64,000 bases of DNA, taken from NCBI GenBank assembly GCA_023078555.1, contig CM041203.1, forward strand, positions 3,143,981 to 3,207,980, in the 5' to 3' direction. Of this stretch, positions 4,983 through 51,478 are shown piece by piece. The number at the start of each line of letters is the position of its first letter. The stretch's first letter is position 1. The stretch comes from Ulva prolifera (lineage: Eukaryota > Chlorophyta > Ulvophyceae > Ulvales > Ulvaceae). The translations under genes and the position numbers were made by a program. Below the pieces are notes generated by a model. That model worked only from the letters and a program-made list of their open reading frames with translations. It searched no databases and was not told the DNA's origin.

Positions 4983-7900
4983 CCAGCGCAGATGCAAACA
5001 AATTGTCTGAGACCAAGCGGCGCGCGCTCGAGAGCTTGATGTTCAAGCTGTCTCATTCAATCATCTCACCTGCCGACTTCAAGGTGTGCGTTACAAGGGA
5101 TATCCTGCAACTGTGTAGGTGTGGCACTGCATCAAATTTTGTCAGTGCGCTGCTTATGCAGGATGATGCAAGCCTTATAGGAATCGTTGGTAAGTTTATT
5201 CTTACGCCGTGATGCTCGCAGGTCCATAGCTCAACTGCTTTGAATGTCGCCATACTGTATGTTGTCTTTCACACAAAATGTGAGATCTGTGGAATGATGT
5301 GTAGCTGCTGTCACACGGGAGGAAGAGTGTGACATCAGAGCAATGGCCTTAGAAATTCTTGATATCACAACCGACAATCAGCTGGTCGCAGCAACTGTAT
5401 CAGCTTTGCTGAGCAAATCCCAGCTTGAAGACCTCATCAGCTGCAGTCCTGTCCTGCTGCAGCACGCATTCAAGAAACTGCACGGAAAGCTCTTTCAAAA
5501 GGTGCGACCCCTAACAGATGCTTCTGCAAATTGCGCACAAGCTGTAAGCAGAACATCGTGGTGCCACGTGTCATCGTGCGAATATTCTGTTGCTGTTCTA
5601 TCCAAATCGTTTAGCTTGCTTCAGCGACATCGGGACTTGAGCTGGTGCAATCATGGTACCAACCGATCGGTATGCATAATAACCTAACGCATTATGCCTG
5701 ACGCATCATCTGAGTTTTAAAAATACTCATATCCATACTGGTCAGTGCAGCATGTGATGCTGTTGATGTGGAGGCGCTTGGTTTGTAGCATGGGTTATTA
5801 TATGCATTCATGCTGAGTACATACATGATCATGTGTATACGCATCAGTTGTGGTAAGTCCTAGCCGTTTCTCATGCAGGGCTTGCATGGCTCCAGACTCT
5901 CTGACCAGGCTGCCTCAGTGACACCTGTGCTGCCCGGAACAGCAGTGGGGCCTGCATCTGAGACTGAGACTGAGGCCAGCCGTGCCCACAGCGTCATGCC
6001 GCCGCTGATCACAGCAGAGCAGAATACGTGCCTGACTGTGGTACCTGATCCCCCATGTATGCCGGCACCTGACACCAGTCCACTATTCCACAACACATAT
6101 GAACTTCAGTATGCGGATGGATCAATTACTGGAGATGCATCCGTACATGCCTCCCTTTCCATCCCAGCGATATCTCCATCCATGCTCTTCAGTGTTCCTC
6201 CACCGACGATGGTATGCCATCATTGGGTTCTGATGCACACATAGCTTGACATCAGCGGACGTCCATCAGTGGGGTCCTTGCGAGCGCTTTCGTGTGCTGA
6301 CTGGTCAAGTGACATTGGCTGGTGCGAGTTATCGACGTAAGATTCTCAGGATGCAGGCAGATGTGCGCTGTCATGATGATCCGAGCGCGCCAAACACAGA
6401 TGTTGATCCTGATCCAATTCAAGGCACCGCCATGACAAGCACTGCAGGCATTGTGGGTAGCCTTGACTGCACTGAGGTCCACAGGCATGATGGGCAGCCG
6501 CCATGGAGGATAGCAGACAACTGCACTCTGGGAGTCGCACCACATGCTGCCGTAATGCAATCGAGTGACCTCAGGTTGAAGTTGAAGTCAAAGGCGGCGT
6601 CCGTCATCCTGGGGGGCCGCGATACAGCTCCAAGGCAAACCACATATATGCCTACCCAGCCGTCGAGAAGCCTAGCTTACAGTCACCATCAAGCAATGGC
6701 TAGTGTCGCTCTAACGCAGGGACCCCATCGAGTATTTTGCACGGGGAATGGACAGGAGTGTGACCAGAATACTCAGGGGGGGGCACCACAGACTGCCAAG
6801 CCACAGTTGACCGGAGCAGTGTGCGCCCTGGCACCGGGTGCGATCGATTCAAGCAAGCATCTTGTGACGCCTGCCCTGTGGGATAACTCCAGGCGAGGAC
6901 TTGAGCCGGATGGGAGTCAAGGCGTGCAGACAAGTCCACTTGACAGTGTGCTAGCTCAGCAGTCAAGGAGACCAGTGCGATTCGCAGAGGAAGTCTCTCT
7001 AGAAGCTATGTGCGCTGTGGATATGCGATTGGGCTCTACAGTTCAGCCACAGACACCCCTGTTGACCACTGCCGATGGGGAGGTTTCGATAGCAGTCAAG
7101 GTGGCAGAGCCGGTGGCCGCCGAATCCGTCGACAGCCACACGAAGCTCGGTCACTTAGGCGTCTGTCGATCACCAGGTTTGACCCAAGCTGTATGAGCCA
7201 AGGAATATGATGGTGTCAGGCCTGGTGTACATCTGGTCATGCGGCAATGTTTGTGCAGGAGAGCAGACTTTGACTTTGAAGGAGACAGCATGTGTGCTTC
7301 CCGGCATGCAGCTCTGCCAGTCAGATGACCAGCACCTCTTTGAGCTGACAGTGCGGCTGCATCACACAGAGAGTGAACACGATGCTCTTGCGGTTCTACA
7401 GCAGCTGGCCATGTGTACTGCTGAAGATTTCCCGGTGGAGTCTCTGTTGCAGCGCGGCGACATGCTCGATGGTGTGTTAGAGGTCATGTGCAGTCCGTTC
7501 ACACCAACGCTGTGCTGCATTTGGGCCGTTCGCTTCGTCCACACATTGGTGTTGAAGACGAAGCAAGCCTTGCTCCAGTCACACAACACCGAGCTGACGC
7601 CCTTGTACAACGGTGCGAGTCATGAACACTGCAGCCAATGAGTTAGCTGCTGCCACTGATCACTGCACTTTCACGAGCAGCTAGCTTGATGAAAACACAA
7701 ACAGTCCAATGTTGAGCTGCTGGTTGAGTTTCTGAGTCTACTGTTTGCCCAACATGCAGCTTTTGAGGGCCCTGAAAGCGCTGTGGGGCAGCTCAATGCA
7801 GAGGAAGAGGCACTCCTCCACAGCTACCCGCAGCCTTGTGGTCCAGGAGCGCTTCCAGATTGGCTACCGCATTCGGAAGAGACCATTGATATCATCAGCT

Positions 7901-19459: not shown

Positions 19460-19492
<33 letters not shown>

Positions 19493-19674
19493 CGGTGGAC
19501 ACTCGCATGCGAATTCTACACATACTGCGTTCGACCGGCGGCGGACTTTTTTCGAAGATTCAGCGCGGCAGAGATCGTCGGGACGCGAGGGGCCAAAGCA
19601 ATCGTGGATGCGCTCGCGCGCGCGGCTTCGACTGCTTCGCGCGGGACCGATGAGGCGGACGACGTCGTACGCTG
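18571..19674 (+). pseudogene. GC-rich decayed gene, 5' part, interrupted by the tnp2 transposon
   Basis: This GC-rich block has protein-like frames that switch phase: frame 1 at 18571-18843 and 18853-19134 (VAVDAIISVDGVMESDMEHVW; ERMPDRVALMLHAALHDPN), then frame 2 from about 19000. The latter reads through TWTLSVALCRQLATKG, WRDNVMDVVVLAGQVMAMT and, after one TAA at 19415, a homopolymeric C tract and ADFFRRFSAAEIVGTRGAKA, to DEADDVVR at the transposon edge. The frame resumes at 30775. The stop, the phase changes and the 31-C tract argue that it is no longer functional. Base composition is richer in G+C than the rotatin and TAD3 exons, which may mean a foreign, possibly viral, origin. No family is recognised. 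Confidence 0.5.
19461..19491 (+). repeat. Homopolymer of 31 C residues
   Basis: A run of 31 consecutive C lies inside the GC-rich decayed gene, where it would encode polyproline in any forward frame. Runs of this length are unstable and often misread, so the exact length is uncertain. Confidence 0.9.
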
Positions 19675-19760
19675 CACCATCACAGCGACTACGCGAGTTT
19701 TGGCTCACCCAGGTGCGCGTAAAGGTGGGTGCGCGACCTAAGGGTGCGCGGCTTGCAAAC

Positions 19761-20168
19761 TTCTGCGGGTTTGATGTAAAACGCCTTTTAAGGCCTTAGT
19801 TGGCTGTGTTTAGGTGTATAGTGAGTATGAATGTGATTTTGGTTCATATTTATGGTCTCTAGAGACGTTGTGGGGAGATCTTGTTTCGACGCTGCGCACC
19901 AAGCCGGTGCGCGACGGCTACGGGTGCGCTAAATCCAGGTGATCAGTGTACTGCCGACTGCCTGACTTCTGCGGGTTTGAGCTAAAACGCCTTTCAAGGC
20001 CTTAGCTAGCTGTATTTAGGTGTATTGTGAGGATTAATGTGATTTTGGTTCGTATTTATGGTCTCTAGAGACGTTGTGGGGAGATCTTGTTTGGACGCTG
20101 CGCACCAAGCCGGTGCGCGACGGCTACGGGTGCGCTAAATCCAGGCGATCAGTGTACTGCCGACTGCC
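19761..20168 (+). repeat. Tandem duplication, 206-bp unit, in the left subterminal region
   Basis: Two head-to-tail copies of a 206-bp unit begin at 19761 and 19967 (both start ttctgcgggtttga). Each includes ggtctctagagacgttgtgg, a short palindrome (tctctagaga) and the cluster ctgcgcaccaagccggtgcg. The copies differ at a handful of sites. The repeated GTGCGC words match those near the right end of the element, so the unit probably belongs to the transposase-binding array. Confidence 0.85.
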
Positions 20169-20516
20169 TTTTCGAGACGTTTTGTTGCAGTTCATGCAGC
20201 ACACGCTAGCATGATTAACTTCAGAGCACTTTGAGACGTTGCGAGGCTTGGAGATGGGGGGCGACTAAGTGTGTGTCCCTGACGGGAAAGTACGTGAGTA
20301 CCTGCCATTGTGGCGTCGGTGGATGAGTGTAGGAGGTTTTCACGCACCACCTTATAATAAGCGCCGTCGTCTGCAGCTGCGCATGCAAGACCAGAACGGC
20401 TTCGTGGCACCGTGGTTGATGCAACGTGCAAATTCTAGTGTTGCCTACACGGCAATGGGGCCTCGTGCATTGATCGTGTGACCTGGCAATGGATACTTCT
20501 CGGTGATTTTCAGCAG

Positions 20517-23500
20517 ATGCCCCGCAAGCGTGCTAAGACAACTGTCCCTAGTTCATCCGAATATATTCAATTAGCACACGGGTGGAAATTTTGCAACAAA
20601 TGCGACGGCAGTTGGCAACGCAGTGATCACCTCCGACGACATCTGGGAAGTGATCAGCACATCACTGCGGCTCTCGAGGCTCGCAACCGTCCAGACCTTT
20701 TATATCCTGAACCCGACATTGTTACAGCTGTTGCGTGTACCCGTTCGTATGATCTCCCCCCGCGCGGCCAAGCTGCGGCAGTCACTGAGCAATGTTCAAA
20801 AGATGTAGCAGAGGGTCTGCCCGTGCTCCATGCACACCATGAACCTCCTGATTTACCGAAACAAGACGAGTCCGAGGATGGTCCAAATGTTGGGCCAGAT
20901 CTTCCCCAGCTGCCCGAGCTTCTAGGAGACTGTCTTGATGACCGGAATGAAGATGTGCCCTTGTCTTGGGAAGGGGACTGCGATGCAGCGAATGAGCCCG
21001 AAGTAGCCGAAGCCTGGGATATTGCCGATGGATTGGATACATACGCAGTGCGTTCATCCGGTTGAGCTGTTGATCAACCCACAACGCCTTGATTGCGTTG
21101 TAGCAAACTCACCGCCTTGTTTCAGTGGCCAGCGATATGCACCGCCAATCAAGTTTTTATACTTATTCTCGCCTCCCTCTGTCCCTGATTGGTATGTGCT
21201 CCAGGACATTGATGACCTGGTGCAATTCGGGCTTGATGATTGCCGTGCCAGAGGTGGTGTCGATGTGGACGCCCTCATGCAAGCGGCCAGGGGGGCTGGC
21301 CTCAATGTTGCACCTGACATCAGCATGGAAGTTCTACGAGCTGAGCTTGAGAGTCAAATGGAATCGTCGCAAGGTTCCGATTCAGCCTCGGTTATGCGCG
21401 AGCCCCAGAAGGGCACGGTGCGTTGGTATCAGCAAAATGCAGACGAGCCTATTGCTGCCGGCGTGCCGGTTACGGTCAGGCAGGCTTGCTTTTGTATCGC
21501 AGCTCTTAAATTGCACGGAGGCATCACTGTGTCTGCCGTTGACACTATGTGCCGCTTACTGGCTTGTGGTGGATTTTTACATCCCGAAGCCAACATCATG
21601 CCAAGGTTTGCATATGCTCCCTGCCGTGATGAGTTGTGTTGTGTGCTTTTGTTTACTGGCTACCCAAGTTCGTACGTACTTGTAGGGAACCCCCATCCCC
21701 CGCCACGTGTGCAGGTCGGAGCATATAGTCAAAGGGATATTGGGCCTTCAGAAGCCAGATGCTTATGGGTGGGACATGTGTGATAACGGTCAGTGTCCTA
21801 CCGTGTATGGACCGCGGCTGCCAATGCCAGAACGCTGGAGCAGGCAAGGGGAGCGCTGCCAGCGCTGTGGGAACCTGTGGTTCCGGAAGCGTGGGCGCCA
21901 GATTCAGCCTGCCCGCAGGTACGGATCTCTGGTGACATATGTGTGTACGCATGCATGTCCACTGATGTGGCATATCGGCACGTTTGTTGCTGCAGTGCCT
22001 ACATTTTAAAGCTTGGGGATGTAGTACGCCACCTCTTTGGTGTTCCAATGTTTGCAAAGTTTGCTGGGACACGGACCGAGGCATTGCTGAACTCACCCTT
22101 TTACCAGCACATTGATCAGCTGCATGGCCACGCTGTATCTGGTCTCGCGTGTGGGACACCACCTGCTGCGACGTGTGGTGAGGCTGTTGAGGGACGGACC
22201 GTTGACGCAACATCTGCCGCCACCTCCACAAATCCAGCACCTTTTCCACAGACCGGTGCATCTCCATCGTCTCACGCCTCTGATGCTGGCCCGTCTCGTG
22301 ACACTCCTTTGGCAGCCCTGGCAGAGGATGAAGTCGACGCAGATCCAACTGATGAGGTCATGACAGGTGCTGGTGACTCTTTGACACTCATGTTTGCGGT
22401 GTTTGTGGATGGAGTCCAATTGCAACAACAGGGTAGAGGCACAACTACCGTGATCGGCATCAAGTGTCTAGATTTGCCTGGATTCTTGGCCAACACTGAC
22501 CTTGCATGTTATGCCCTCGCCTTCATTGGCGGTCCCAAGGAGCCCAGCAATCTGTCCGAGATCATGAGCATTATTCTGAAGCAGTTCAAAGATCACGAAC
22601 CTGTGGGTGAGAGGGATGACAAAGGTATATGTCCCCTACAGTGATTGCCATTATTGCTTGTGTAGGTGGTGCCTGCATGTGCGATGCGCAGACTCTGTGG
22701 CATGATCTGACTTTATGTTTGATAGTTGGGATATCTCTGCTTGTTGCTTTAGACCTTATGGCTTCTCACTGTCCCTCGTCTGCAGGGAACTTTGTTGTAC
22801 GAGGCGAGCCCATCACTGTGTGGGACAGTCACATGAAGGACGAACGGAAAGTGTTCCCAATTCTCGTATTTGCATTCGCCGACACCCCCGCCAGACGAAC
22901 CTGGGCACTCACAACTGGCCATTCGGGGAACTCGGGCTGTGATAAGTGCTTCATTCGTGGGGTGCGAGAACTTCCCGATGGTACACCTCTTGGATGGAGC
23001 GCCTTCTGTGGGTATTACCGCGAGTGCCCAGCGGTATACCTGAAGCCCGATCCCGTGGTAAGTCTCTCCGCATGCTATGTGTAGCAATGCCTTGTTTGAG
23101 GAGATTTAAGATGATGTGATATGCGCTGCTTGCAACGCCAGACGTTTGGCATAGTGTACTCTGCGGCTCCTCTCAACAGTGCTGGCATGTGTAACCTGAA
23201 TGGACAGACATAATGGAAATGCTATGCAGCTCCCAGGTCGCCTCCGCGCGATGAGAACCAAAGTGAAACTGGGCGCCAACGGTCAGCCGGACTTGGCAGT
23301 TGTAGCTCGTCTGGTGGTCTCTGATGAGCAACATCGCCAGAGGAGCGACGATGCCGAGGCCATCACCAGGCTATGGAGCAATAAGGTCCAATTGCCATGG
23401 CAAGCGCGGGGAGGGGGGCAGCCTTCAGTGAATCCGAACACCAAGGAACAAAGGCGGCTGACACGAGGTGCTGCGTGACCCCTACTTGTCTCGTTAGGTT

Positions 23501-25619
23501 GATTACTACGCTGCGCATTGACCCCATGGTGTTCACGAATCATGCATAGGTATGCTTGGACTCACCGTCCGTGTGTCAGAGTGTATTTGCCACAACTGCC
23601 ATTACTGGCCATGGGGTGTAATAGTGTCCAGTGAAATGGTTACATGTGCAGAGTGTGCTCAGAAGTGGGAGGAGCGTTACAAGGGCGCCAATGAAGAGCA
23701 CAAGAAGACTGGATGTCGCGGCGTCAACCCGTTCCAGTCCAGTGGTCTTCGCTCTTACCAGTAATTTGTTTGCCTCTTATACCATACGCGGTGCATACAT
23801 TCGGGTGCCTCTTGCGCAGTGTTGCATGTGGTGGTGGTTTGTGTAGTTACCAGCTCACCTTTGTGGATCCGATGTCTCACTCCATCTTGTACTCCTTGGC
23901 CAGAACGTTTTTGGAGCTGATCTCCCACCCCAGGAATGGTTTCATCGTGGGCGGACAGATGTTTTCCCTTGATTTCAAACTGCAAATCAAGCTGGACATC
24001 TTCGCCGAGAAGCTGGAGTACATCTCTGCCTACAACCGTCGCCCTCCGATATTCACTGGGTAACTTTCTTTTGTTTGAGTTCCTGCTGTCTGTGAACTGA
24101 ACTTTTTGTGTCTGCGATCTTGTACAAATGCATCGACTCAATTGCATGCAGGGACGTACCCATATCGAAGTGGCTCTTTGAAGAGCTCAATACATTTATC
24201 GAGATTACAGGAGCGATATGTTTTTACGTTGCAAGAGCCGAGATTCATCCCGGTATCTTGAAGATGTGGACACACCTCAGGAGATTCACGCTTTACTTCT
24301 TGCATTACAGGCCCGGGCAGCACACCGAGGCTCAGATCCGTGCTGCCCAGCGCGAACTGTTCCAATTCGGAGAGTATGCAGAACGGTACCTGAAGTGCAA
24401 GATGCTTACGTGTCTTGTGCATAGGTGCTTCGCCCACATTCCTGACCAGGTGAGTGGGACTTTGCCAGGAGCGTTTTTACGAGAGGACTGGGGAGAACGC
24501 CTTGTGCGGCACACGAAGGGAAGGATTACCGGCCACAACACAAAAGAGACGGAACGAGCAGCTGCCGGAGTCTGCCTTGACGAAATGTCTCTGCGGATCA
24601 CTCAGAAGAAGTATCCCGGAGTGGACGGGCCCCTGCTTGCAATCAGACCGCAGGGTAGTACAAGGCCTCAAGACAGCGGTGACGATTACGGGACCCTTCT
24701 GCATTCTCTGTGGCCAGCGTACACCGGAGAAGATAATGATGAGGTGTGTTCCATTTGCAGTTGCAGCTGGCGGAACTTTGATGTGTTGTAGCGCTGGGTT
24801 GGGATCTGCCTGAACACATCGGCAAACCATCCCTCTTGCTATATAGCATTCCAGTTCTGTGCATGTACCTATGCAAAAATACTTGGTCTCACCGATCGAT
24901 GAATGCAGGAAACGCGGTTGGCTCGCGTGCTGCGCCTTATGAAGGACAGGAGTGGCCGGGGGCACCAGGTGCAGGGCGAGTTGGCTATAGCTGGCAAGCT
25001 GACCGCTGAGCACATCACCGGAACCTGGAATGCAGAAGCTGGGGAGAGGGAGTACCCTGGGGACATTATCCCTACCGTGTCGGTGTCGGACACAGCAACC
25101 ATCCAATCAGGTGCCTTTCTTATCCGCACGATGGAAGGCAGTTCTTCGTTCAAACGTACGCACACCGATCATTATGTATACATCCCCTTCCACTCAGGGT
25201 CTGGTCACAATGTGTGTGTGATGCGTGTTGAGCAGTCGATCTTGATCAAACACAAGGGTATGGGCTGGCGGAATGGGGAGGCCCGTATAGCTGTGGGCAT
25301 GCTATGGGACCACCTGGCAATCAGGCGTGGGGCTGGCCTGGAAGTAGAGTTCAACGACGATCCCAGTAGGGGAGCTTGTAGTGTCCCCCGAGCCCTTCAG
25401 CTCACTCCTACAAGGAAGGCTATGGGCTATCAGCATGCTGTGTTTGTCCGGCAAATACATTGCCCGTGTGTTTACATTCCCGATCCCACTGGTGATATGT
25501 TCATGACTGTCAGCAAGATGGGATACCATGGTAGAAAAGACTTGTTATGGAAGGCTATTTGTGGTCAGCCTGTGGAACAGGCGGAGAAGGAGAGGTGGGA
25601 GATCTCCCGATCGGTGTAA
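20517..25619 (+). CDS. tnp2-like transposase (CACTA/Plavaka type), multi-exon
   Basis: The gene probably starts at ATG 20517 (MPRKRAKTTV) with an N-terminal C2H2-like finger (CNKC, then HLRRHLGSDQH) and a long acidic linker. The next segment has the tnp2 signature CIAALKLHGGITVSAVDTMC followed by EANIMPR. The exon at 21716-21917 gives IVKGILGLQKPDAYGWDMC and a four-Cys zinc site (CDNGQC...CQRCG). About 21994-22624 holds the first catalytic-like block FAVFVDGVQ, then LPGFLANTDLACYALAFIGG and PKEPSNLSEIM. About 22783-23056 has VWDSHMKDERKVFPILVFAF and GCDKC. Segments near 23220-23478 and 23640-24062 follow, the latter with VDPMSHSILYSLARTFLELI. About 24151-24750 corresponds to the DUF4218-like part (HRCFAHIPDQ, ERLVRHTKGRI). 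About 24909-25619 is a C-terminal domain ending EISRSV-stop. No internal frameshift is evident once introns are allowed. Exon borders are approximate. Confidence 0.83.
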
Positions 25620-26151
25620 CTTTATACAGTTATCGGCTTGGTTTCGCAATGTATACCTGAGTAGATTCTTTTATTTGTCTATTCCACTAACCGACGCAGC
25701 ACTGAATATTTTGTTTTTCGAGCTAGTACACCGACTGCAGTACCATGTACGAATATCAATTGTGTATACAGTGACACATGATGCACCAAGGCTTTCATTT
25801 GCTTTATCATGGCCGTTGCAACCATGGGGGGCACCTGTACACATGTACCAGTGACTCTCATGTGTCTACCTGCGGAAAACCGGGCAATTAAACAGTGGAT
25901 GACATAAAAAGGGAAACAACAGTCATCTCATACTCATAAGTTAAAGGTTGTGTTGAGCTTCTAGCACAACTGTGACAGCTACGACGTGCACTGGGTATAT
26001 TGCATGCATGCATTCGCAGGTTTAGGCCCGATTGCCGGCGTGCGCCCAAGCTGATGTACACATCTCACAACACAACTGTCGTCGTCAATTGCGCTACTGC
26101 GCACTTTCCACAAGTAGCGAGATCGTTCGCTTTGCTGGAAACTTGCTAGCC
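25620..26151. other. Spacer between the two transposon genes
   Basis: The interval is AT-richer than the flanking exons. It carries no supported coding segment and probably holds the transposase 3' end and the promoter or 5' UTR of the second gene. Confidence 0.5.
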
Positions 26152-29140
26152 ATGTCCGACGCAATAGCCGACACCGTCGGCGTGCATCAGTTGACTTCAT
26201 TGATGCTCGTGATTGACGGGAAGCGGTGTCAGTTCCCTGTCCGGAAGCCCAAAAAACAGTCTATTGATGATTTTATGATCAAAGTGCGCGGCGAGTTCAT
26301 TAGGAGAGTAAGTGCATGCACAAGTCGGCCATATCACAGCGTCATTGGATACCCAGCCCTGGAAGATGCTAGCATCGAGGACATTTTCGAGGAGGTGTAC
26401 CAGATTCCCTACGAGAATGAGGATCCTTGGCTTCTCCAGCGCGACAAGATGGCCGGGGTGATATTCCTGCAGTCCCCCAGGACCCCCGCAAACACCGATC
26501 ATCGGAATCAAAGCAGCAAGTCGACTAATAGTAGTCAGAAAGCACAGAGACTCGCATCAAAGGTCCTTTTCTTTCTTCGGGCTCCCGTGTATCGCTGGCC
26601 ACGTTGTCTGGCAGGTTGTTATTTAGGGCTCTGCGCGCCTACGTTGACAACGACGATTAGCTTCTGAATAGTAATTTTTTCGTTTCGCAGGCAGAAGAAA
26701 CCATGAACGACAGCTTCCAAATGTTCATGCCGCGCATCAGCATTACTGCTTTCATCTACCTTGTCGTTCACCTGGGCATCGCGTTGATCGTGAAGACACC
26801 GTCCCTGTGCATCGGTGCCGTCATGTCCCACAAAGTCCGGAGCATGCTGATGAAACCAGATGTAAAGGCGTGGGCTATGCCCGACAATATCGACGACACT
26901 GATGTGGGGTCCTTGATACCTGCGCCACCCACATATGTACAGGATAGACGCACACTGAACAATTATAATTGTTCATTGTGTATACTTATGCAGACGTCGA
27001 ACGAATGTGTTCATGCAGGATTACGAGGGACTTGCGCAGCTGCGGAATGGGTGGGCTATCAAGAAGGTCAAGAGCAGGGTGATCCGTATGGTTTACCTGT
27101 ACATTAGGCGCCGCAGTATTCTTGACCAGAGGCCTGAAGTCGCAGCCGATGCAAAAGGTGCGCTGAAGCACCTTTCCAAGAAGTATGACACGGACAACAG
27201 GCGGAAGGCTCAGGCATCCTCAGACCTATTGTTCCTGTCCTGGGCTTACATCATGCGGGGAGACGGGAAGCTGCAAAAGGCCCTACACGAGTCTGAGTGC
27301 TTGACAGGGGAAGAGATCCAAGCTGTCTTGAAACAGTTTGACAACATCTTCACCAAAATAACCAAGACCGACATTGCCACGTTGGCCAAGACGTTCAGGG
27401 AAAACCTCCGAGCTCACGTAATGGGTCTCGTTGCATCCAAGAAGACACAGAAGGTATGAATACCGCTCGTGATCTGCAGCATGCTGGCAGTACACTGCAG
27501 TGTACTACCACAGAATACTCAACAGAATGAAACGTATGACCCTGCCATCACCAACACGACGGTGTTGTCTCCACATGCGCAGTCGAGTGGCGTGCATTCA
27601 TCGATAGGCATTCACCAGAATATAGTGTAGGCAGTTCGCTTTCTATTTAGCTTCTTCGCAGAGACATTGCGGCAAGATCCCAGCTTTGAGCTGAGTGCGT
27701 GCCTCGAGAAGGCACGCCTCGTGGACTTCCGACAATTGAAGTCCTATCCGCCAACCTGGGGTACGCTGAGCAACAACAGCATCGACAGCCCCTTGGCGTG
27801 GGTGCATGACCTCCCCGAGATGCTGAAGGGGGACTCGCAGCTGGACATCACCTTGATAACAAGCCCAGGAGAGTGCACGATGAAGCGGTTGTTTGCTGCA
27901 GCTGGAGGAGCCGCAACATTCGGTTACCAGCTGCACCTACACTTACATGAGCTGTTTGTTTGGCCTGTTCCATACGCTGACTTTTACGATGGTGCAGTCC
28001 TCGGCTCCCAGAATGATAGTGATGAAGACGCCGCGGATGACACAGTAACCAACCCAACCAATGCCACCACTGGCCCTCCAGTGGCTGCTGCAGCCGAGAC
28101 AGAAAGAAACGCCACAGATGATCCCACTCTTCCTGGTGTGACGGTCGCAGCGGAGACGGATGTTGAAGTGCCATTGCCCCGGCAACAGCTGAATGTGGCA
28201 GGGGTTTTCATGCTGTTGCATATAGTCCCATGGGTGGTACGCATCACACACGAATGACAGTCATGATGTTACGTTTGTAGCGAGTTGACTTGAAACGGGC
28301 CAATCCGTGATCGCACCTTGTGTGGACAGCTCGGTGACATCAAGCACAAGTTTATGCTACCTGTGCTGTAGGTGTGCCCGGCTAATTTATTAACACCGTG
28401 TGCCTGCAGGAACAGCTATTCAAAGAGCACAATATGCCCCCACCTACCAACCTGATGCAAGCAGTTGAGTCGCTTGCAGCGTGTGTACCACAGAGGCCAG
28501 GCCACCTTGACGATGTCGACTTTGACTATGGCGATGATACCGCCGACTCCGGAGATGAGCTGATGTCTGAAGATGAAGCTGACCCAGCGACTGCTGCCAA
28601 CCAGACTACTTAGGGCACCAACAGCCGAGCAGCACGTGTGCAGAGGAGAGCAAAGAAGCCAAGGTGCAACACAGAGCATGCGGGGAGTGAGTCTGGTCAA
28701 GGCAGTGTTCCTGGCGCTGGTCCCTCACTTCCAGCTCCTAGGAGACGCAAGAGCAGGATTGTGCCAGCCACCAAGACAACTGCGTCAGAAACTGACACAC
28801 AGACGGAAGCGACCGGAACAGGAGACACCAGCACTCATGTACGTCTACACTTTTAATGCATTACATATGCATTTTACTGCAGTACATGTGTGGATCTCAC
28901 GATGGTTCATTAGCCTGTCCAATGCCCAGCCAACAGAAGCAATTTTGACCACCATGCTGGGAACCTGAGTTGACCCCATGCATATGATTGCAGACAAATG
29001 AGCAGTCATCAGAGGATGCAGCCATTCGAGCTCCCGTCCGTCCCTCGGCAACAAGGTCCAAGGCAACTAAGCGTCCTGCGAAGAGACCTAACACACGGGC
29101 GAACTCGATGCCCAAAAAGGCTAAGAACATTGACCGGTAA
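26152..29140 (+). CDS. Second gene of the tnp2 transposon, function unknown, possible DNA-binding accessory protein
   Basis: ATG 26152 opens MSDAIADTVGVHQLTSLMLV and continues to the first donor (RR|GTAAGT, about 26310). Later segments near 26345-26560, 26693-26935, 27017-27455, 27526-27629, 27661-28240 and 28409-28612 include a helical region (RNGWAIKKVKSRVIRMVYLY; QAVLKQFDNIFTKITKTDIA), a block DFRQLKSYPPTWGTLSNNSI, an Ala/Thr-rich linker and an acidic stretch (DDVDFDYGDDTADSGDELMS). The last segments are very basic (RPAKRPNTRANSMPKKAKN) and look like a nuclear localisation or DNA-binding tail. The TAA after KNIDR at 29138-29140 overlaps a possible donor (CGG|TAAGTG context), so more exons may follow. 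No known domain is recognised. Its place downstream of a tnp2 gene recalls the TnpA partner of plant CACTA elements, but no sequence similarity supports that. Confidence 0.6.
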
Positions 29141-30769
29141 GTGCTCTTATCAGACGTAAGTGTGTGTGGCCCTGTGTGCCTGTACATATGTGTATTCTGG
29201 GCAAGAGCATGCTCCACCTGCAGGTGACGACTATATGTCGACTGAAACTACAGGCAAGCCAAGGTCAGATGGTAATGTACATTCAGCTTCATGTTGTGTA
29301 TCTGTATCTGATCCTAGTTAGGCCTTTGGGCGTGTCCCGGGCAGAGTATGGCAGGTGCACCTGCGTGCAGCTGCGCATGGTGGGTGCAGCCGTGCACCCG
29401 CCACCAGTGCGATGGTGTAACAAGTATCACTACCATACCAGTATCGAGTACAACCTGTATTGATGTATTGTATGCACTGAAAGGATATATATCACTTCGG
29501 CAGTGACCTTGTTGCGCACCTGTGTAGCGCACCATGTGACAAAGCGCGCACCTACAATAGCGCACTCAATGGGTGCGCAAAATCAGTGGCGTTCGCATTT
29601 TAAAAAAGTGCGCAAAGTGTGGTGCGCAGTGCGGCACTGCAAACGCGACGCTCAATCCGCAGACGCTAATAAACGATATATAATGGATATACATCGACAT
29701 ACTATCATCCGATCGGTATTACACCGATCAAGGTAGCTGGCGGCTTACACCGTGATGGCACAGGTGGCAAGTGAGAGGAAGGTAATTGCGCTCTGCGCAA
29801 CACACTCAATAACGCGCCGATACAAGCAAACATACGGTGACCGATCATGTGTGGATGTTTTGGAACGGCGGCTGCCTGCGAAGGAGTCCATGTCGTTGCA
29901 GCTCCGGTGGTGGGTATATCCAGTATAGTACATGCGTTCCTCCCGGCATAGCCAGAGCATGCACGGTTGGAGGACTGCAAGCCCACGAGTTGCAGGAAAA
30001 TGACTATGTTTGATTCAAGGGGATACATTGTCAGTTTGTCGCGACCGAACGTGACTCTTGCGGCCCGAGTAATCAGATCACTAACTGAAGCACCAGGCTT
30101 CTCGGAGCCGCACAGGCACATCACAGTCACACAGGAGCACCATGAGTTCATCACAGCAGGAATTTGAACGTATTGTGATGGCTAAGTGGGTCCGGACACC
30201 CCCATTCCGTGCAATCGACGCACTGCAGCTCGGGCCACACCACGTAATCCGGACACGAAGCTAGGCGAACCGGACCGGATATGACATTTCCGCGCCCTAC
30301 AGAACCTCAATATGGTTATAGTACACAATATCCCCACTGCATGTAACCCGCCCTTACTCCTGATGGACTCTGGCCAGCGGAGCGCGCCATTCGTCTTCTT
30401 TGCCACGGCAGACACGCAAGACCACGAGCCCACCTATTAACCGCACTCACGCGCGGAACACCCCTCAAACAGCTGTTAGGATGCAATATTATCTTAGCTC
30501 CAAGCCCGCACGAGTATAGGCCTCGGGTATCGCAAATCACAATCTGTCCCGCGCGTGACGTGGCCCACGGCAACAGCTACAGAAGCATGCAAAGGTAGCC
30601 GATCGCGCCCGGAACAATTCGTACGGAGTCCCAATACATCTAGCTACCCACTGACTATGATTACAAACAGTTTAAAGCCTTCCCAGGCCCTGATCAGTTT
30701 CGGCCAAATCTGGCGCACCCATGTCGCGCACCAGGGTTGCGCGGCTTTCGGGTAGATGCTGTGATGGTG
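29141..30769. other. Right subterminal region of the tnp2 transposon, GTGCGC clusters
   Basis: No convincing gene is present. Between about 29505 and 29635 there are at least eight GCGCAC/GTGCGC words in both orientations. Another cluster lies at 30712-30775 next to the terminal inverted repeat. These match words in the left subterminal zone and are probable transposase-binding sites. The rest is unremarkable unique sequence. Confidence 0.6.
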
Positions 30770-31132
30770 CGCTGCGCGATCGAGTCAACCGCTTCGTACC
30801 CGTCCACGGGGCTTGCACGAAACGTCTTGTGCATGCTCGACGACCCAGGAACATGGGAATCATACTGCACGGCCTCAATGCGCGACCGGGGGTCCGATCC
30901 GGACGGCGCGGATGCGGAGGTGACCGCATTCGCCCTCAGGGCGGCGCTTGACGACATCGGACTCACGCGGAGAGGGTGCGCCGTGTCGCCCATCGTTATG
31001 GGCTCAATTCTAGGATTGGCGACAAAGTTTGTCGTCGAAATGGTCGACATGGCGAGGCGCGCCGACGTTGAGCGTGGAGTGGTCCTCGTCGGGTTCCCCG
31101 ATGAGGTCGACCGCGCCTTGCGCGCCTGACCC
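30770..31132 (+). pseudogene. GC-rich decayed gene, 3' part, beyond the transposon
   Basis: This continues the frame interrupted at 19674. With one CGCTG copy removed, codons run ...VVR-C-AIESTASYPSTG and on to a stop at about 31127. The C-terminal half is alanine- and arginine-rich with predicted helices (VTAFALRAALDDIG; VSPIVMGSILGLATKFVVEM; VDMARRADVERG). The segment SPxVMxxxxGLATKFVVEMVDMA faintly resembles the histone-fold helices of TAF10/TAF11-type proteins, but this is not strong enough to name the gene. Codon choice is strongly GC-ending. Confidence 0.5.
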
Positions 31133-31534
31133 GGGGGACACCGGACTGATGAGGGTCGTGCCGGGCGCCGATTAGACACGTGTGACGTGGTGGGAGGCAG
31201 TCCTTGAAGGGCGAGGTAGTAGAGGCAATCCCTGCAGGGGCCTTCGGATGGTGAAGAGATGATTTTTTTATTCGAAGAAATCATGAAAATCAGATTATTT
31301 TGTTCTACAAAATTCTTCGGATAGCTTTCAGGTTAGCTTTTCGCATACACACGCCTTTTTGGGGGAGTTGTCACGTTTCACGCCATGCCATTGACAGCGC
31401 AAAGCGTCGAATCTTAGTGGTGGAGGATCCGTGACTTGACATGCTTCGTTGTCGCCCATAGGCCTGTGATTAGGGCCGTCCTCGCGACGTGTGAGGAATT
31501 GTGCGGCAAGCGGTCTTCGGGGAAATCGCTAAAG
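31133..31534. other. Non-coding stretch downstream of the GC-rich gene
   Basis: GC falls sharply after 31250 and there are A/T runs (gattttttta, attattttgttctac). A 3' UTR or downstream flank of the decayed gene is likely. Nothing else is recognised. Confidence 0.4.
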
Positions 31535-31883
31535 TGTCACAATGCATGAGCCTGCGGGCAGCAGCGTGGTGACAGGTGCACTCATGCACGGACGATCCGC
31601 GGATCAAGTGTAGGGGTAAGCCGCCAACCGGGATTGTCTCGATGTAGTGAGGGAGATCCTGCGAGGGTTTCCCGCCGTAACCTTGAGTGCTCAATGTGCA
31701 TATAAGGATGTGCACACTATGATCTGTAACCATTCCTCTTACTGTTTCCCGGTGCTAGCACTCTCCTTTAAGCGTTTCCTCGGTTCTACCTCTGTGCGCA
31801 GCAGGTATGGAACGCTGGCTGCCCTGACCTGACCTGTACTTAAGACTGCGCGTCTGACCTGACAAGATAAAGCATTTCTGACA
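31535..31883 (+). mobile_element. Solo LTR of a Ty1/copia element, TSD TAAAG
   Basis: This 349-bp sequence starts TGTCACAATGCATGAGC and ends TTTCTGACA. It matches the LTR at 44481-44826 along its length and is flanked on both sides by TAAAG (31530-31534 and 31884-31888). No internal element sequence is attached, so it is a solo LTR left by LTR-LTR recombination. Confidence 0.93.
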
Positions 31884-32036
31884 TAAAGTTCGCTACAGTG
31901 CATGTTATAAACGAGAACCTGTTATGTGTGGATTAGGAGGTTAGTAGAGCCTATACCAAGTGTTGAGTGATCGGGTAGCGCTGGGAGCTGGGCACCCTTG
32001 CGAGCGTACAGAATAAGACGAGAGAAAAACAAGGGT

Positions 32037-32381
32037 TGTCAGAAACGCTATCCTATGCAGGTCAGACGCGCAATCCTTTTGAAGATCAAGTCATGTAGCC
32101 AGCATTTCCATACCTTCCGCGCACAGAGGTCGAACCGAGGAGATGCTAAGAGGAGATGCTAATACCGTGAAACAGTAAGAAGAATGGTTACAGCTCTTAG
32201 TGTGCACAGCCATATATGCACACTGAACAGTCAAGATTACGGCGGGAGACCCTCGCAGGATCTCCCTCGCTACACCGGGACAATCCCGCTGGCGGCTTAC
32301 CCCTGCACCCGATCCGCGGATCGTTCGTGCATGGGAGCACCTGTCACCACACTGCTGCCTGCAGGCTCACGCATTGTGACG
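32037..32381 (-). mobile_element. Copia LTR inserted in reverse orientation (solo)
   Basis: The sequence reads TGTCAGAAACGC at its left and TTGTGACG at its right, the reverse complement of the copia LTR. Comparison with the empty copy at 33130-33150 places the insertion within an aggggt motif, with about 5 bp duplicated (agggt / ggggt, imperfect). No internal region is attached. Confidence 0.85.
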
Positions 32382-32477
32382 GGGGTAACAATGCCGCACA
32401 CAGCTGCAGTGGAATGACTAGAACATGCCCAATTGACCATAAGTAATTGTGTCGATCACAACAAAATATTTGGAATA

Positions 32478-33052
32478 TACCGTAGTAAACGTAAAGAGGC
32501 GTTGATGTCCGTCCCAGAAAAGCTGAAAACGACGAAATTAAAAAAATTTGCCCGTCCTACGGACGGCGGAACGACGAAATGGGAACGTAATGATTTGTGG
32601 TGTCCCGGGTTCCTCGTCGCTAGCGCGACGAGTCACAAAACAATGATATCTGTCCTGTCCCGGTAGATGCCAGTACAACGACGGCTAACGAATGATTGTG
32701 GTATCATTCTCGTCGAAAGGTTTGTAGAAATCTGTTATCGAACGTTTTTGCACCTTTCTAACAGGCTCGTTGTCCACTGTCATGTCAACACAACTGGATG
32801 ACTCGCTCATAGTGACTACTCAATCTCACTACTCAATTACAAAGTGACGGGTTACTCGCAGCGTTGTAACGAGCGACCAATAAATGATTCCTTGTGTCCC
32901 GTCCGGCAGAGCTTGCAGCTGACGAGCTGTCAACAAACGATTTGACTGTCTATCCTCGTCGCCACCGAAACGACGGCTAAAAAACCGCTAAAAATTACTT
33001 CTGCGTCCCGTCCCTGCGGGGCTGGCAACAACTCTTTACGTTTACTACGGTA
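32478..33052. mobile_element. 575-bp MITE with 21-bp perfect terminal inverted repeats, TA-type
   Basis: Positions 32478-32498 (taccgtagtaaac...) are the exact reverse complement of 33032-33052. Both ends lie at TA, as expected for a Tc1/mariner-type duplication of TA. The interior has no transposase frame. It carries several inverted fragments (cgtcctacggacggcg; tcgtcgctagcgcgacga), so it could fold extensively. Confidence 0.8.
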
Positions 33053-33212
33053 TGTGCCCAGGCCCATCCCTGCTTTGTGTTGACTAGTCGGGTAGCGCAG
33101 GGAGCTGGGCACCCTAGCGAGCGTACAAAAACGACAAGAGAGAACAACAGGGGTAACAATGCAGCACACAATGGAATGACGGGAACAGAAGCGCCCCAAT
33201 CGACCAAAAGTA

Positions 33213-33554
33213 TGTCACAACGCATGCGCCTGCGGGCAGCAGTGTGGTGACAGGTGCACCCACGGATGATCCGCGGATCACGTGTAGGGGTAAGCCGCCA
33301 GTGGGATTGTCCCGGAGTAGTGAGGGAGATCCTGCGAGGATCTCCCGCCGTAATCTTGACTATTCAGTGTGCATATATTGCTGTGCACACAGAGAGCTGT
33401 AACCATTATTCTCACTGTTTCACGGTACTAGCTGTATCCTGTCTCCCCTTCATCTCTCTGGTTCTACCTCTGTGCGCAGTAGGTATGAGATGCTGGCCTC
33501 CTGACCTGACGTAAGACTGCGTGTCTGACCTGCGGATAGATAGCCTTTCTGACA
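33213..33554 (+). mobile_element. Copia 5' LTR followed by a tRNA-Met-like primer binding site
   Basis: This LTR of 342 bp begins TGTCACAACGCATGCG and ends CTTTCTGACA. The next bases, TGGTATCGATG at 33555, resemble the TGGTATC start of the initiator-Met primer binding site of plant copia elements, so this is a genuine 5' LTR. It is nearly identical to 49466-49813, differing by two small deletions and a few substitutions. Confidence 0.88.
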
Positions 33555-34690
33555 TGGTATCGATGAATGTTTGCGTTATGTCTTTACGGTCTTGTTCAGG
33601 AAGCCGTCGGCCAAAGTCTGTGCGCAGACACGGCGGGCATTCCACTGTTCTGCCGGCGCTCAGACCGCGGTCATAAGCGCAGGCATCATTAAGCTGTCTC
33701 GTAACACATTGTTATTAGATACAATTCGAGAAGCTTGTTTATAATGATCAGCGCTGGGAAAAGCGAACGCGTTCGCTTATTGTCTCAACCTGTCGGCTTG
33801 CGAGCCATCCCATTGGTTAGTTGCTGCGCGCGACAAACCACCGTCCGTCCTACTGCAGGATGTCTCACTCTGATCTCTCTAACGCCAACTCTCCTCGCGA
33901 GGAGAGGCAGGACGAGGCTGACCAGCAGCCAATCGTTGACAGGGACGCTGACCAGCAGCTCCCGGAAGGAGAACAGCCCGCGGGCATGTTGCTTCGTGGC
34001 GGACGAGTTATCCGACCACGTCCCTCTTCCCAGACTGGGCAGAGCAGCCAGCAGGTGCCTTTTTCCTCTCATGTTGTGAACGATCATGGTCACACTGAGT
34101 CTTATATCACACTCGAGACGTTGACCGAAGCGCTGCATGCATCTCGGGGGCGTAACAAGCCTGATGTATCGAAAGGAAAACTGCCTGAATGGAATTTTAA
34201 GACCGAAAGCTTCGTTGCGTACGAGCAGAAAGTCTTTTTGTGGTTAGGTCAATTCGAGCTAGACCATCTGTTGCAGCACGCACCGTCCGCGGACGAACAG
34301 CGTGTCCACGCAAGAGCAAGGACTCAAGTCCTCATGTCTTTGCCTGACGCGGATAGGACTACTGTCTATCGCATGTCACATCTGTGTGAAGCATGGGCCT
34401 ACCTGACTGCAAAGTATAGGCCTAGCACCGAACCCGAGATCCACAGACTGTGTGTCTAGGACGCGAGGTCCCTGGTCTCTGAGCGGAGTACCTTGGAAAG
34501 ATTGACAGTGGAAGCGTGGGCTTACGGCCAGGCACGAGGACCTATGCGGCGACAATAAACAGAGATTGGATGCGTGTACGCAGGACAAGATGGAAGAAAT
34601 GCTCAATAGAAGCGCCCCATCCGAACCAGTGCGAACTGTGTCGGACCCAGCAAGCGCGCAGTATAAATACTGCTTGTGATGCGCCCAGGA
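33555..34690 (+). pseudogene. gag: Copia leader and gag, truncated
   Basis: ATG 33860 opens a gag-like frame (MSHSDLSNANSPREERQDEA) with a Gln-rich region, then a copia Gag core (LPEWNFKTESFVAYEQKVFL; EIHRL). A stop follows at 34459 after RLCV, just where the related minus-strand copy at 50200-50440 continues with RFNSLSQ. Degenerate gag-like sequence continues to about 34690 (a WMRVRRTRWKK-like frame) before gypsy LTR sequence begins. Protease and integrase are absent. Confidence 0.75.
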
Positions 34691-43449: not shown

Positions 43450-43987
43450 CAGTGTTCGAATTTTGGGGAAAGTGTCGTTTAAAGGCCGCTCAAAAATAAG
43501 TTGTCCAAAATTTGGTCGGCTAATTGGTCCGATTTTGACTTGCCAGAGCGGCTAGCCACCGCCACATAATTCAGTGAAGTCGAGGCTCTGAGCGGCTAGG
43601 AAGCGCCACAAAAGTAATAATTTGCACACGACTGGCGCCTAATGGTCGTAATCTTAGTAAGGCTGCGTTTGCGTGTGTGTGCGTCAGCATGGATCCCGTC
43701 GTCTTCAGCCTGTCGAGCTCGCTACAAGCTGGACCGTCTTCGCGATCGGGGCACGACCAACGTACGAAACGGCCTCATTGCAATTTACTTTCAATTTTCT
43801 TTGGTAGCGCAGGAAAGGTGCTCACTTGGAGAACCGCCGAAAGCTAAAAATCCGTGAACACCGACGACACACAAACAGGAATTAGGTTTCGTCGGCTACG
43901 TCCGACACATAAATAAGTTTTTGTCAACATCTGTCGGCTAGCCCTCCGACAATTCATTATGCCGGGCAGATGAACTTTCGATCACTG
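43450..43987. mobile_element. 538-bp hAT-type MITE inside copia RNase H, 8-bp TSD
   Basis: Copia copy 2 (48978 onwards) lacks this block, which defines its edges exactly. It begins CAGTGTTCGAA and ends TTTCGATCACTG, short imperfect inverted termini of hAT type. It is flanked by 8-bp direct repeats GACACGGG (43442-43449 and 43988-43995). No transposase frame is present, so it is non-autonomous. It was inserted after copy 1 had integrated. Confidence 0.92.
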
Positions 43988-44463
43988 GACACGGGTGTTT
44001 ATTGGAGGCTTATTCAGATGCAGATTTTGCGAACTCTGCTGATCTGAAAAGCGTGTCCGGTATGGTTATTCGGGTGCATGGGAACTGTGTTCTCTGGCGT
44101 TCGAAGAAGCAGAGTATAGTGGCTGGGGATACAACAGAGGCTGAACTCATTGCGATGAGTGCAACAGCCAACGAGTTAATGTGGGTGAAGCAGTTGCTTC
44201 TCGAATTGAAACTCGTCCCACATAAGCCGACTCTGTGGGGTGACAATAAGAGTGCCAACATCTTGGCTGTGAATGCTGTGTCCACTGACAGATCCAAGCA
44301 CATTCGTGTGCGGCACTTGCGGGTGCGGGAATATGTCCAGATGGATGAACTGAAGGTAGCATGGGTAGGCACTGTTGATCAGTTAGCGGATGTGTTTACT
44401 AAAGTGCTGCCCGGACCTGCTTTGTTAGAAGTTCGTAATAAACTCCAGCTAGTGGAGACGTAG
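43988..44463 (+). pseudogene. pol: Copia copy 1 pol: C-terminal RNase H part
   Basis: The copia frame resumes after the MITE: LEAYSDADFANSADLKSVSG, VLWRSKKQSIVAGDTTEAEL, LWGDNKSANILAVNAVSTDR, then QLADVFTKVLPGPALLEVRN and stop at 44461-44463. Catalytic Asp and Glu of RNase H are present. The MITE separates it from the RT. A polypurine tract (ttatgggggag) follows just before the LTR. Confidence 0.9.
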
Positions 44464-44480
44464 CAGGGTTTATGGGGGAG

Positions 44481-44826
44481 TGTCACAATGCATGAGCCTG
44501 CGGGCAGCAGCGTGGTGACAGGTGCACCCATGCACGGACGATCCGCGGATCCAGTGTAGGGGTAAGCCGCCAGCTAGGATTGTCTCGATGTAGTGAGAGA
44601 GATCGTGCGAGGGTTCCCGCCGTAACCTTGAGTGTTCAGTGTGCATATAAGCATGTGCACACTGAGATCTGTAACCATTCTCTTTACTGTTTCCCGGTAC
44701 TAGCATTCCTCTTCAGCATCTCTCGGTTCTACCTCTGTGCGCAGCAGGTATGAGATGCTGGCTGTCCTGACCTGACCTGAACAAGGACTGCGCGTCCTGA
44801 CCTGCACAAATGATAGCTTTCTGACA
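44481..44826 (+). mobile_element. Copia LTR between copy 1 RNase H and copy 2 nucleocapsid sequence
   Basis: The LTR is 346 bp, TGTCACAATGCATGAGCC to CTTTCTGACA, with a TATA-like catataag near 44643. On the left it has the proper PPT and RNase H of a 3' LTR. On the right it is followed directly, with no primer binding site, by a gag zinc-knuckle coding region. It therefore serves as 3' LTR of copy 1, and the 5' part of copy 2 has been deleted or the two were joined by recombination. Confidence 0.9.
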
Positions 44827-46705
44827 GCTGGCAAGGCTCCTCGCGAGGAGACCAGGACCTGCTTCTTTTGCAAGAAGAAGGGACACTTGCGTGCGAACTG
44901 CCCCCAGCGCAAACAGGCCGCGGCCAAAGATGTTTGTGCTGTAGAACTGCCTGAAGAATTCCCGGATCACGATGCGTTGGCAACGTGGAATTTCATCATA
45001 GATAGCGGTTCTGACATTCACATTGTAGGCAATCGCGACATGTTTACCGAGTATGGTCCGTGCCAGAGAACTGCCAATCCCGCCGGACCAGGCAAGATTC
45101 CCATTATGGGCAGGGGAACCATTCAGGTGAACCTGGGCACTTATGTGGATGAGCATGGAAATAAGCATCCTCTGGATGTGGAAATCCTGGGTGTGTACTA
45201 TGCCCCTGAGTGTCCATACAACATACTGAGTACTATGGGTCTTCGACATGAGCAGATGTACTTAGACACGCGGAGAAATGTGTTGTATGTCCCCGGTTTC
45301 GGAGATATGGCTACTGGTATTGAGGATGCGTCCAAGTACCAGGAGCTGGACGAGGATAAATGTCGTGTCTTTGCTTTCAAAATGAGTTCCATCAAGAAGC
45401 CTGTTCTTGAGGGTCATCCAGTCAACAGGGGAGTGGTCTGGTCTGACCAGAGCAGTCCGACCTCTGTTGTGGAGGATCAATAACAGTGGTGTCATGTGGC
45501 CGCTGCGGCGATTGACCTGAAGCGCCCCAATGCTGGAGGAGCTGAGGTCCCACATGATGCTTACTTGCTGGAACCTGCATTCCTAGCTCATTTGTCGTTC
45601 CATCAGTCGACGTGGGTCTTAAAGCGGATGCAGTCAAATAGTGAATTTTATGGTGACTTGAATTTGAAAGTTGACCCCGTGCCAATGGGGAATCGTTGCC
45701 ACGGCTGCAGAATTGGCAAAGTGCCTGCGGGCAGAATCTCAGCCAATAATCGTGAGGTCTTAGGCCAGGCGAAATACCCTGGCCAGCAATTGCATGCTGA
45801 TTTGGCTGGTCCCTCCAGTTGGGATCGGCGGTGTGAAATATGTTTTGTTTGTGATGTGCGCCTTCACCCGTTATACTTTCATTGTCGGTTTGCGTAAAAA
45901 GAGTGAGGCTGCGGCCATGATCTCTTACATCATTGAGCGCATTCGGGTGAATGTGGTGAAGCCACGTGAACCGGGTGTGCGCATCCTTCACACCGACAAA
46001 GGGGGAGAGTTCATGGTTGAGGCCTTAAAGCTCTACCTCCAGCGTCGTGGCATCACTCACCGCACCACCCCCACAGCTGATCATCGCTGTAATGGCATGA
46101 TCGAGCGGAGGATTGGTATTGCCTTTGAGGCAGTCCGAGCTGTACTGCTTGCGAGCGGTCTCCCTCTGTTCCTGTGGATTGAATGCCTTGCCAGTGTCAT
46201 CCATGGTCACAATCTCACGCCGTGCTCGGCGCTGTGCCATGACAAACTGGCAATAATGATGAAGGCCCAGAAAGCTCAGCGTGATGCCAATACAGCTGCG
46301 GATGTACAGCAGGCTGAGCGGGCTAATAAGCGCATGAAAAAGGCCGAACGTGACAAGTTGCGGGAGGAGGAGAAGCGCAAGTGGGAGTTGCTCACTATGG
46401 CAGAGCTGGATGAGTTTTTGACCAGGTCTTGTGACAGGGATATTATTCCTTACATGTCCTTTTTCAGAGATACCTCCATTGAGGTTTTCCATGATTTGGT
46501 GAAGCAGCAGCGTCCATGGGGGGTTGAGGTGTATGCGTACCCTAGGGATGATAAGCTGCGGAAGTTGTCCGCGCGGGGTATGGTCGCATACTGGGTTGGT
46601 GCTGGGCTGGGGCCCATCATGCAGCGTGTGTACGCCCAGGATGTTCCTGGGGGTAGGGTTGTGGTGGTGCGGCAGATCATGTGCACCACGGATCAGATGA
46701 TCTGA
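44827..46705 (+). pseudogene. pol: Copia copy 2 nucleocapsid, protease and integrase, broken frame
   Basis: The frame opens with a CCHC zinc knuckle (CFFCKKKGHLRANC), then an aspartic protease (FIIDSGSDIHIVGN), and stops at about 45481. Continuing across frame changes are the pre-integrase zinc region (CHGCRIGK), then, after a shift near 45800, the integrase core (LHADLAGP, ILHTDKGGEF, CNGMIERRIG: D, D and E present). A charged coiled-coil insertion follows (46250-46400: KAQRDANTAADVQQAERANK) before the usual core-end motif KLRKLSARGMVAYWVGAGLG. Stop at 46705. The frameshift and stops inactivate it. Confidence 0.85.
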
Positions 46706-46735
46706 CACGTACGTAAGTACGATGCGTCCGCTGTT

Positions 46736-49449: not shown

Positions 49450-49465
49450 AGGGTTTATGGGGGAG

Positions 49466-49813
49466 TGTCACAATGCATGCGCCTGCGGGCAGCAGTGTGG
49501 TGACAGGTGCACCCATGCACGGATGATCCGCGGATCACGTGTAGGGGTAAGCCGCCAGTGGGATTGTCCCGGAGTAGTGAGGGAGATCCTGCGAGGATCT
49601 CCCGCCGTAATCTTGACTATTCAGTGTGCATATATTGCTGTGCACACAGAGAGCTGTAACCATTATTCTCACTGTTTCACGGTACTAGCTGTATCCTGTC
49701 TCCCCTTAGCATCTCTCTGGTTCTACCTCTGTGCGCAGTAGGTATGAGATGCGGGCCTCCTGACCTGACGTAAGACTGCGTATCTGACCTGCGGATAGAT
49801 AGCCTTTCTGACA
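49466..49813 (+). mobile_element. Copia LTR shared by copy 2 (as 3' LTR) and a following partial copy (as 5' LTR)
   Basis: It is preceded by RNase H and PPT (gtttatgggggag) and followed immediately by TGGTATCGATG, the primer binding site, plus leader and gag start. One LTR therefore acts as 3' LTR on its left and 5' LTR on its right. This is the arrangement of tandem copia elements that share an LTR, generated by recombination. Confidence 0.9.
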
Positions 49814-50199
49814 TGGTATCGATGAATGTTTGCGTTATGTCTTTACGGTCTTGTTCAGGAAGCCGTCGGCCAAAGTCTGTGCGCAGACACGGCGGGCATT
49901 CCACTGTTCTGCCGGCGCTCAGACCGCGGTCATAAGCGCAGGCGTCATTAAGCTGTCTCGTAACACATTGTTATTAGATACAATTCGAGAAGCTTGTTTA
50001 TAATGATCAGCGCTGGGAAAAGCGAACGCGTTCGCTTATTGTCTCAACCTGTCGGCTTGCGAGCCATCCCATTGGTTAGTTGCTGCGCGCGACAAACCAC
50101 CGTCCGTCCTACTGCAGGATGTCTCACTCTGATCTCTCTAACGCCAACTCTCCTCGCGAGGAGAGGCAGGACGAGGCTGACCAGCAGCCAATCGTTGAC
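49814..50199 (+). pseudogene. gag: Copia leader and gag start, duplicated from 33555-33941
   Basis: The segment is almost base-for-base identical to 33555-33941, with one mismatch noticed (caggcatcatt versus caggcgtcatt), including ATG and MSHSDLSNANSPREERQDEA. It ends abruptly after QQPIVD at 50199, where minus-strand gag of another copy begins. Confidence 0.88.
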
Positions 50200-51139: not shown

Positions 51140-51478
51140 TGTCAGAACACCTATCTTATGCAGGTCAGACGGGCAGTCTTAGTTCAGGTTAGGTCAGGCC
51201 GCCAGCATTCCATACCTGCTGCGCACAGAGGTAGAACCAAGGAATGCTGAAGGGAGATGCTAATACCGTGAAACAGTGATGATAATGGTTTAGATAGTGT
51301 GCACATCAATATATGCACACATACAGGTCAAGATTACGGCGGGAAATCTGCGCAGGATCTCCCTCACTACTCCGGGACACCCCGCTGGCGGCTTACCCCT
51401 GCACACGATCCGCAGACCTATCCATGCATGGGTGCACCTGTCACCACATTGCTGCCCGCAGGCTCATGCGTTGTGACA
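51140..51478 (-). mobile_element. Copia 5' LTR in reverse orientation
   Basis: It begins TGTCAGAACACC and ends GTTGTGACA on the plus strand, the reverse complement of the copia LTR. On the minus strand it is followed by leader and gag, so it is a 5' LTR. Its other side abuts the coding linker of a different copia lineage at 51479. Confidence 0.88.

Follow-up and report, generated by a model that had tools for sequence, protein, structure and literature searches.

The 64,000-nucleotide stretch analyzed here (the window; bases 3,143,981–3,207,980 of contig C8 in a genome of 88.9 Mb and 44 contigs) carries on its forward strand, at positions 19681–30763, an 11,083-bp transposon. We identify it with high confidence as an autonomous-looking element of the CACTA/EnSpm-like group (the CMCT clade), with CACAG...CTGTG ends and a 2-bp target-site duplication (TSD), the CACCAT/ATGGTG hexamers and CGCTG pentamers outside those ends being part of the target DNA. 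A first-pass annotation of the window had described a structurally whole tnp2-type transposon with CACCA ends, a 5-bp duplication, and subterminal GTGCGC arrays, and had taken the ends and the duplication as signs of a distinct branch. The class assignment stands, the element being CACTA-like, tnp2-like by its motifs, and apparently complete, whereas the boundaries, the duplication length, and the argument built upon them do not.

As letters, the proposed ends are accurate: the copy of CACCATCACAGC at 19675–19686 (forward strand) pairs exactly with that at 30758–30769 (reverse strand), and CGCTG borders both copies on the outside. These are the two perfect copies of CACCATCACAGC in the window, where a search allowing up to two mismatches returns 12 matches against 12.7 expected by chance; genome-wide the count is 75, including the two in the window, and a reversed control gives 8. 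The sequence was nevertheless rejected as a family mark, the eight loci read among the 75 bearing no resemblance to element ends.

Other copies in the genome, the comparison that the first-pass annotation had itself proposed, have different boundaries. The left 288 bp of the element, used as a genome query, recovered five other left ends (on contigs C5, C9, C3, C8, and C1), all of which agree with the window inward from CACAG (four) or CACGG (one) and differ from it outside. The right 370 bp recovered eleven other matches, ten of which leave at most 30 bases to the terminus uncovered while one (L023) stops inside; four of these ten right ends are only 71–74% identical to the window and are therefore assigned to close families. 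Four of the ten finish in CTGTG and six differ in their last bases, but none carries ATGGTG, so that CACCAT is found at none of the 15 other ends aligned and the true ends lie six bases further in. Because similarity among the other ends extends no further than CACAG...CTGTG, and in some cases ends a few bases short of it, we place the boundaries at 19681 and 30763. Two pattern searches bear on the same point. The pattern CACAGNGACTACGCG, with one mismatch, gives 32 matches against 80 for its reversed control and hence no overall excess; among the 30 loci inspected, the ten with at least two array words comprise L051 (discounted), the window, seven ends already known, and one new end (L060), and a further locus, L059, is a fragment. 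The conserved right-end word GCGCACCCATGTCGCGCACC, with up to three mismatches, gives 62 genome matches against 8 in the control; of 19 loci inspected, 7 end in CTGTG, 2 in ATGTG, and 10 have no such end, and divergence among the members of one family begins directly after CTGTG.

The length of the duplication is set most clearly by a sister family, whose end CACAGGCCAGATGCC has 85 matches in the genome against 2 for the control, 29 of them exact. Twenty of the exact ends were arranged by eye into ten plus/minus pairs, 3.5–11.6 kb apart, and 111 bases were read at each; the nine unpaired exact ends and the 56 one-mismatch matches were left out of the count. All ten copies have CACAG...CTGTG ends and exactly 2 bp duplicated (AA, CC, AA, AT, AG, AT, AG, AC, CA, and GC), an outcome with a chance of about 1e-12 on equal base frequencies. 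Five of the six long copies (9.2–11.6 kb; on C1, C6, C4, C9, and C2) carry homologues of the window transposase exons, the best of these being about 69% identical, while for the sixth (C10:936098–945323) no transposase exon is among the matches listed (57 of 594 candidates scored). Since the ends are near-identical, long and 3.5–3.9-kb forms occur together (at C1:8800528, C2:1964660, C4:8446870, C6:1720671, C9:973177, and elsewhere), and all ten copies retain their duplications, the sister family may have been active recently. The window copy conforms to this pattern: AT adjoins CACAG on the outside at 19679–19680 and CTGTG at 30764–30765, and among TSD lengths of 1 to 11 bp only 2 fits.

With these data, an element of distinct lineage, ending in CACCATCACAGC and duplicating the 5 bp CGCTG, becomes most improbable. 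Its strength is that the ends and the CGCTG pair are letter-perfect at this one locus, and the reading frame interrupted by the element, which stays open under either way of joining the flanks, is not decisive against it; however, CACCAT appears at 0 of 5 other left and 0 of 10 other right ends, and the sister family, with its homologous transposase, has a 2-bp TSD in ten of ten copies and a further-out 5-bp repeat in none.

Three copies nonetheless weigh against the duplication that we prefer. None of these other two-ended copies of the element's own family (C9, C1, and C3) keeps a TSD of 2 bp or more, the best being a 1-bp match; in two of them the right end is decayed, and the third is 30 kb long, so that its two ends may derive from separate insertions. 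For C6:7719447, a candidate left partner in L062 (at about 5,580–5,610) appears rearranged and was not counted, and for C6:6169613 the patterns used found no left partner within 10 kb. The target site would have consisted of CACCATGGTG between two copies of CGCTG, an arrangement that is improbable by chance at a single target; we estimate post hoc that the four additional inverted pairs and the CGCTG pair would arise together by chance about 4 times in a million. On the 2-bp reading, the element-free site would read CGCTGCACCATGGTGCGCTG, and the pre-insertion sequence CGCTGCACC-AT-GGTGCGCTG would have been palindromic by accident, thereby imitating a longer terminus.

Two other explanations of this coincidence retain the 2-bp insertion. 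In the first, the element would have entered an older scar, an earlier visitor having left CACCATGGTG between the CGCTG copies, for example as the excision footprint of a transposon that duplicates 5 bp. Such a history would account for the inverted 10-mer as well as for the direct CGCTG pair, two features that would seldom coincide by chance, and the shorter join of the flanks (...CGCTGCGCG...) is likewise in frame; we hold it to be unlikely, as no empty or unscarred relative was found in the element's own genome or in viral contigs, nor was any element with ends of this kind identified. The second, that the family prefers palindromic targets of which the window site is an instance, draws on the palindromes present at several other ends (such as L010, L022, and L033) but is very doubtful: the joined sister sites average 2.0 of 8 complementary pairs, against 2.03 at 20,000 random positions in the fetched loci, and only one of the ten reaches the 5 pairs of the window site. 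The genome is, besides, rich in palindromes overall, with 155 perfect ones against 50 expected on equal base frequencies, or about threefold, in the 206 kb of partly overlapping loci that were read, several of them lying right at element ends.

The interrupted reading frame comprises at least 183 codons (19492–19680 joined to 30766–31126). Both the 2-bp and the shorter 5-bp join leave it open through the flanks, and the frame thus does not decide between the two duplication lengths. Neither of its halves has a Pfam match, a search of the element's own genome with the joined flanks for an empty site or a second copy matched just the two flanks in the window, and no relative was confirmed in viral contigs.

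Between the CACAG...CTGTG ends, the organization of the element is that of an apparently intact transposon. The terminal inverted repeats (19681–19719, forward strand, and 30725–30763, reverse strand) are imperfect, with 26 of 39 bases matching. Plant CACTA/EnSpm elements typically have subterminal repeats and a second gene; here, the subterminal GTGCGC arrays described earlier are borne out on the left only. There, nine GTGCGC/GCGCAC words lie at 19713–20135 within the first 600 bp, where 2,000 first-order Markov simulations average 0.74 and none reaches nine, and the region includes a 206-bp tandem duplication (19759–20169). The last 600 bp on the right hold just two such words, a number reached by 293 of the 2,000 simulations, and a cluster of seven lies at 29514–29627, about 1.2 kb inside the right end; GCGCACCTGTGTAGCGCACC recurs at about the same distance from two other right ends, those at C3:1522369 and C9:3579118, again on the inner side.

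The transposase gene is modeled on the forward strand at 20517–25619, from open frames and GT-AG junctions selected on score and by visual inspection, as ten exons (20517–21047, 21205–21605, 21715–21918, 21996–22606, 22786–23057, 23230–23467, 23652–23760, 23847–24059, 24152–24743, and 24909–25619) encoding 1,293 amino acids. The presence of both ends and of a ten-exon frame free of stops in this model supports the view that the element is complete, as the first-pass annotation had held. Its motifs lead us to propose a D-D-E set of catalytic residues, comprising D517 (in FVDG, 22408–22410), D615 (in DTPAR, followed by a C(2)C motif, CDKC, at residues 634–637; 22881–22949), and E975 (in GER, preceded by an H(4)H motif, HRCFAH, at residues 950–955; 24420–24497). 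In alignment A1, from which the last of these was taken, H109, H114, and E134 are invariant in 23 sequences, namely the window and 22 of 27 relatives, and the genome as a whole contains at least 135 exon matches to the window transposase. Downstream, three long open frames on the same strand (26026–26667, 26959–27459, and 27631–28257), which have no family match above the Pfam cut-off, could represent a second, tnpA-like gene.

Standard domain models do not detect this transposase. No Pfam-A or NCBIfam model reaches its cut-off on the spliced protein, and Pfam searches with single exon frames, members of alignment A1, flanks, and pieces gave nothing above the cut-offs, the best match for the transposase being a C2H2 finger with an expectation value (E) of 0.13. 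Transposase_21 (PF02992) matches neither the spliced model nor its core, in a search in which HMMER filters drop most weak matches, and a six-frame genome scan yielded two weak matches below the cut-off, both outside the element; the Plavaka domain (PF18759) matched neither the spliced transposase nor the genome. A strongly diverged form of either domain may nevertheless be present. In 14 control genomes, the scans with these two models gave matches in 0 and 1 genomes, the one being below the cut-off, and as the controls probably lack such elements, they say little about the sensitivity of the scans. A homologue search with residues 500–1293 screened 6,446 candidates and gave no match at E ≤ 0.001, transposase relatives were not confirmed in viral contigs, and a PDB sequence search with an exon-8 profile gave three matches (best E 0.11), none of them meaningful.

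Placement within known transposons relies on residues, ends, and duplications, which we compare with published families. The CMCT clade unites EnSpm/CACTA, Mirage, Chapaev, Transib, Plavaka, ESTA, and Lanisha, and is characterized by C(2)C and H(3–4)H motifs between the second D and the last E, mostly 5'-CA...TG-3' ends, and TSDs of 2–5 bp (Kojima 2025, PMC12730594). The window element has C(2)C and H(4)H between D615 and E975, CA...TG ends (CACAG...CTGTG), and a TSD within this range (AT in the window copy and 2 bp in each of the ten sister copies, though not in the three other own-family copies); it departs from the clade in that its transposase has no Pfam match above the cut-off. With plant CACTA/EnSpm elements it shares CAC...GTG ends and an intron-containing transposase, while differing in its terminal CACAG rather than CACTA, in its 2-bp rather than 3-bp TSD (PMC4158355), and in having no Transposase_21 match found. 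Duplications of 2 bp are described for SmTRC1 (7 of 14 copies; PMC1636069), for CACTA elements of the ENS1_Cis type, which also have CAC...GTG ends (PMC6004678), and for Spongebob of Hydra (PMC4298943). As a consequence, and the CA...TG end being ordinary for the clade, neither the ends nor the TSD mark a new branch. By eye, the window transposase shares with SmTRC1 the D-G part of motif I and the motif III CXXC, but the F/Y and W-P that follow in motif I were not seen; SmTRC1, moreover, ends in CCC and carries Transposase_21, undetected here. The fungal PlavakaA and PlavakaB, with TSDs of 2 and 2–3 bp, respectively (PMC12730594), are comparable in duplication length and in their C(2)C and H(3–4)H motifs, yet end in TGT...ACA or CATCA...TGATG. 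Zisupton, of the KDZ group, duplicates 8 bp and differs in this from the window element with its 2 bp.

For mouse RAG1, the spacings D-19-C and H-20-E are identical to those of the window transposase and exon 8 gives a weak fold match, whereas the first and second D are 108 residues apart in RAG1 and 98 here; Transib elements duplicate 5 bp, in contrast to the 2 bp found here. The residue spacing thus offers a further point of comparison for RAG1/Transib relatives. Taken as a whole, the element is a new member of the CACTA/EnSpm-like (CMCT) transposons, ordinary in its mechanism, with its sub-lineage left unplaced. The literature searched, consisting of openly licensed papers and not covering Repbase, contained no earlier account of a CACTA-type element combining CACAG ends with a 2-bp TSD, and no earlier account of an algal CACTA with Transposase_21 was found among those papers. 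We suggest only tentatively that a deep and so far unnamed CMCT lineage of a photosynthetic protist is represented here, with its CACAG ends, 2-bp TSDs, ten-exon transposase undetected by Pfam, dozens of related gene copies in the genome, and exon relatives in metagenomes.

The transposase would bind the subterminal repeats, cut at the CA/TG ends through an RNase H-like D-D-E center, and join the element to its target with a 2-bp stagger, the repair of which would produce the TSD; the frames at 26026–28257 might supply a tnpA-like helper. The removal of the supposed exception, with CACCA ends and a 5-bp TSD, by means of other copies counsels caution in calling boundaries from a single copy, and an apparently intact CACTA-like family that standard domain models fail to detect suggests that algal genomes may contain more of these elements than their annotations record.

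The host itself is very likely photosynthetic, given 38 genome matches above the cut-off to the chlorophyll a/b-binding (light-harvesting) family, and the genome size together with its intron-rich genes makes an alga likely. Elsewhere in the window, a 1,092-amino-acid open frame on the reverse strand (60724–63999), which runs out of the window and has a weak RVT_1 match below the cut-off (E 0.00093), is probably a retrotransposon of the type without long terminal repeats. A repeat of about 350 bp occurs in several direct and inverted copies, some 79–99% identical, at 31533–34452, 43987–51478, and 53638–54644 (33213–33940 and 49466–50199, for example, are 98.6% identical), and we read these regions as mobile elements that are nested or duplicated. 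To the left of the transposon, 189 bases from its end, 31 consecutive C occupy positions 19461–19491.
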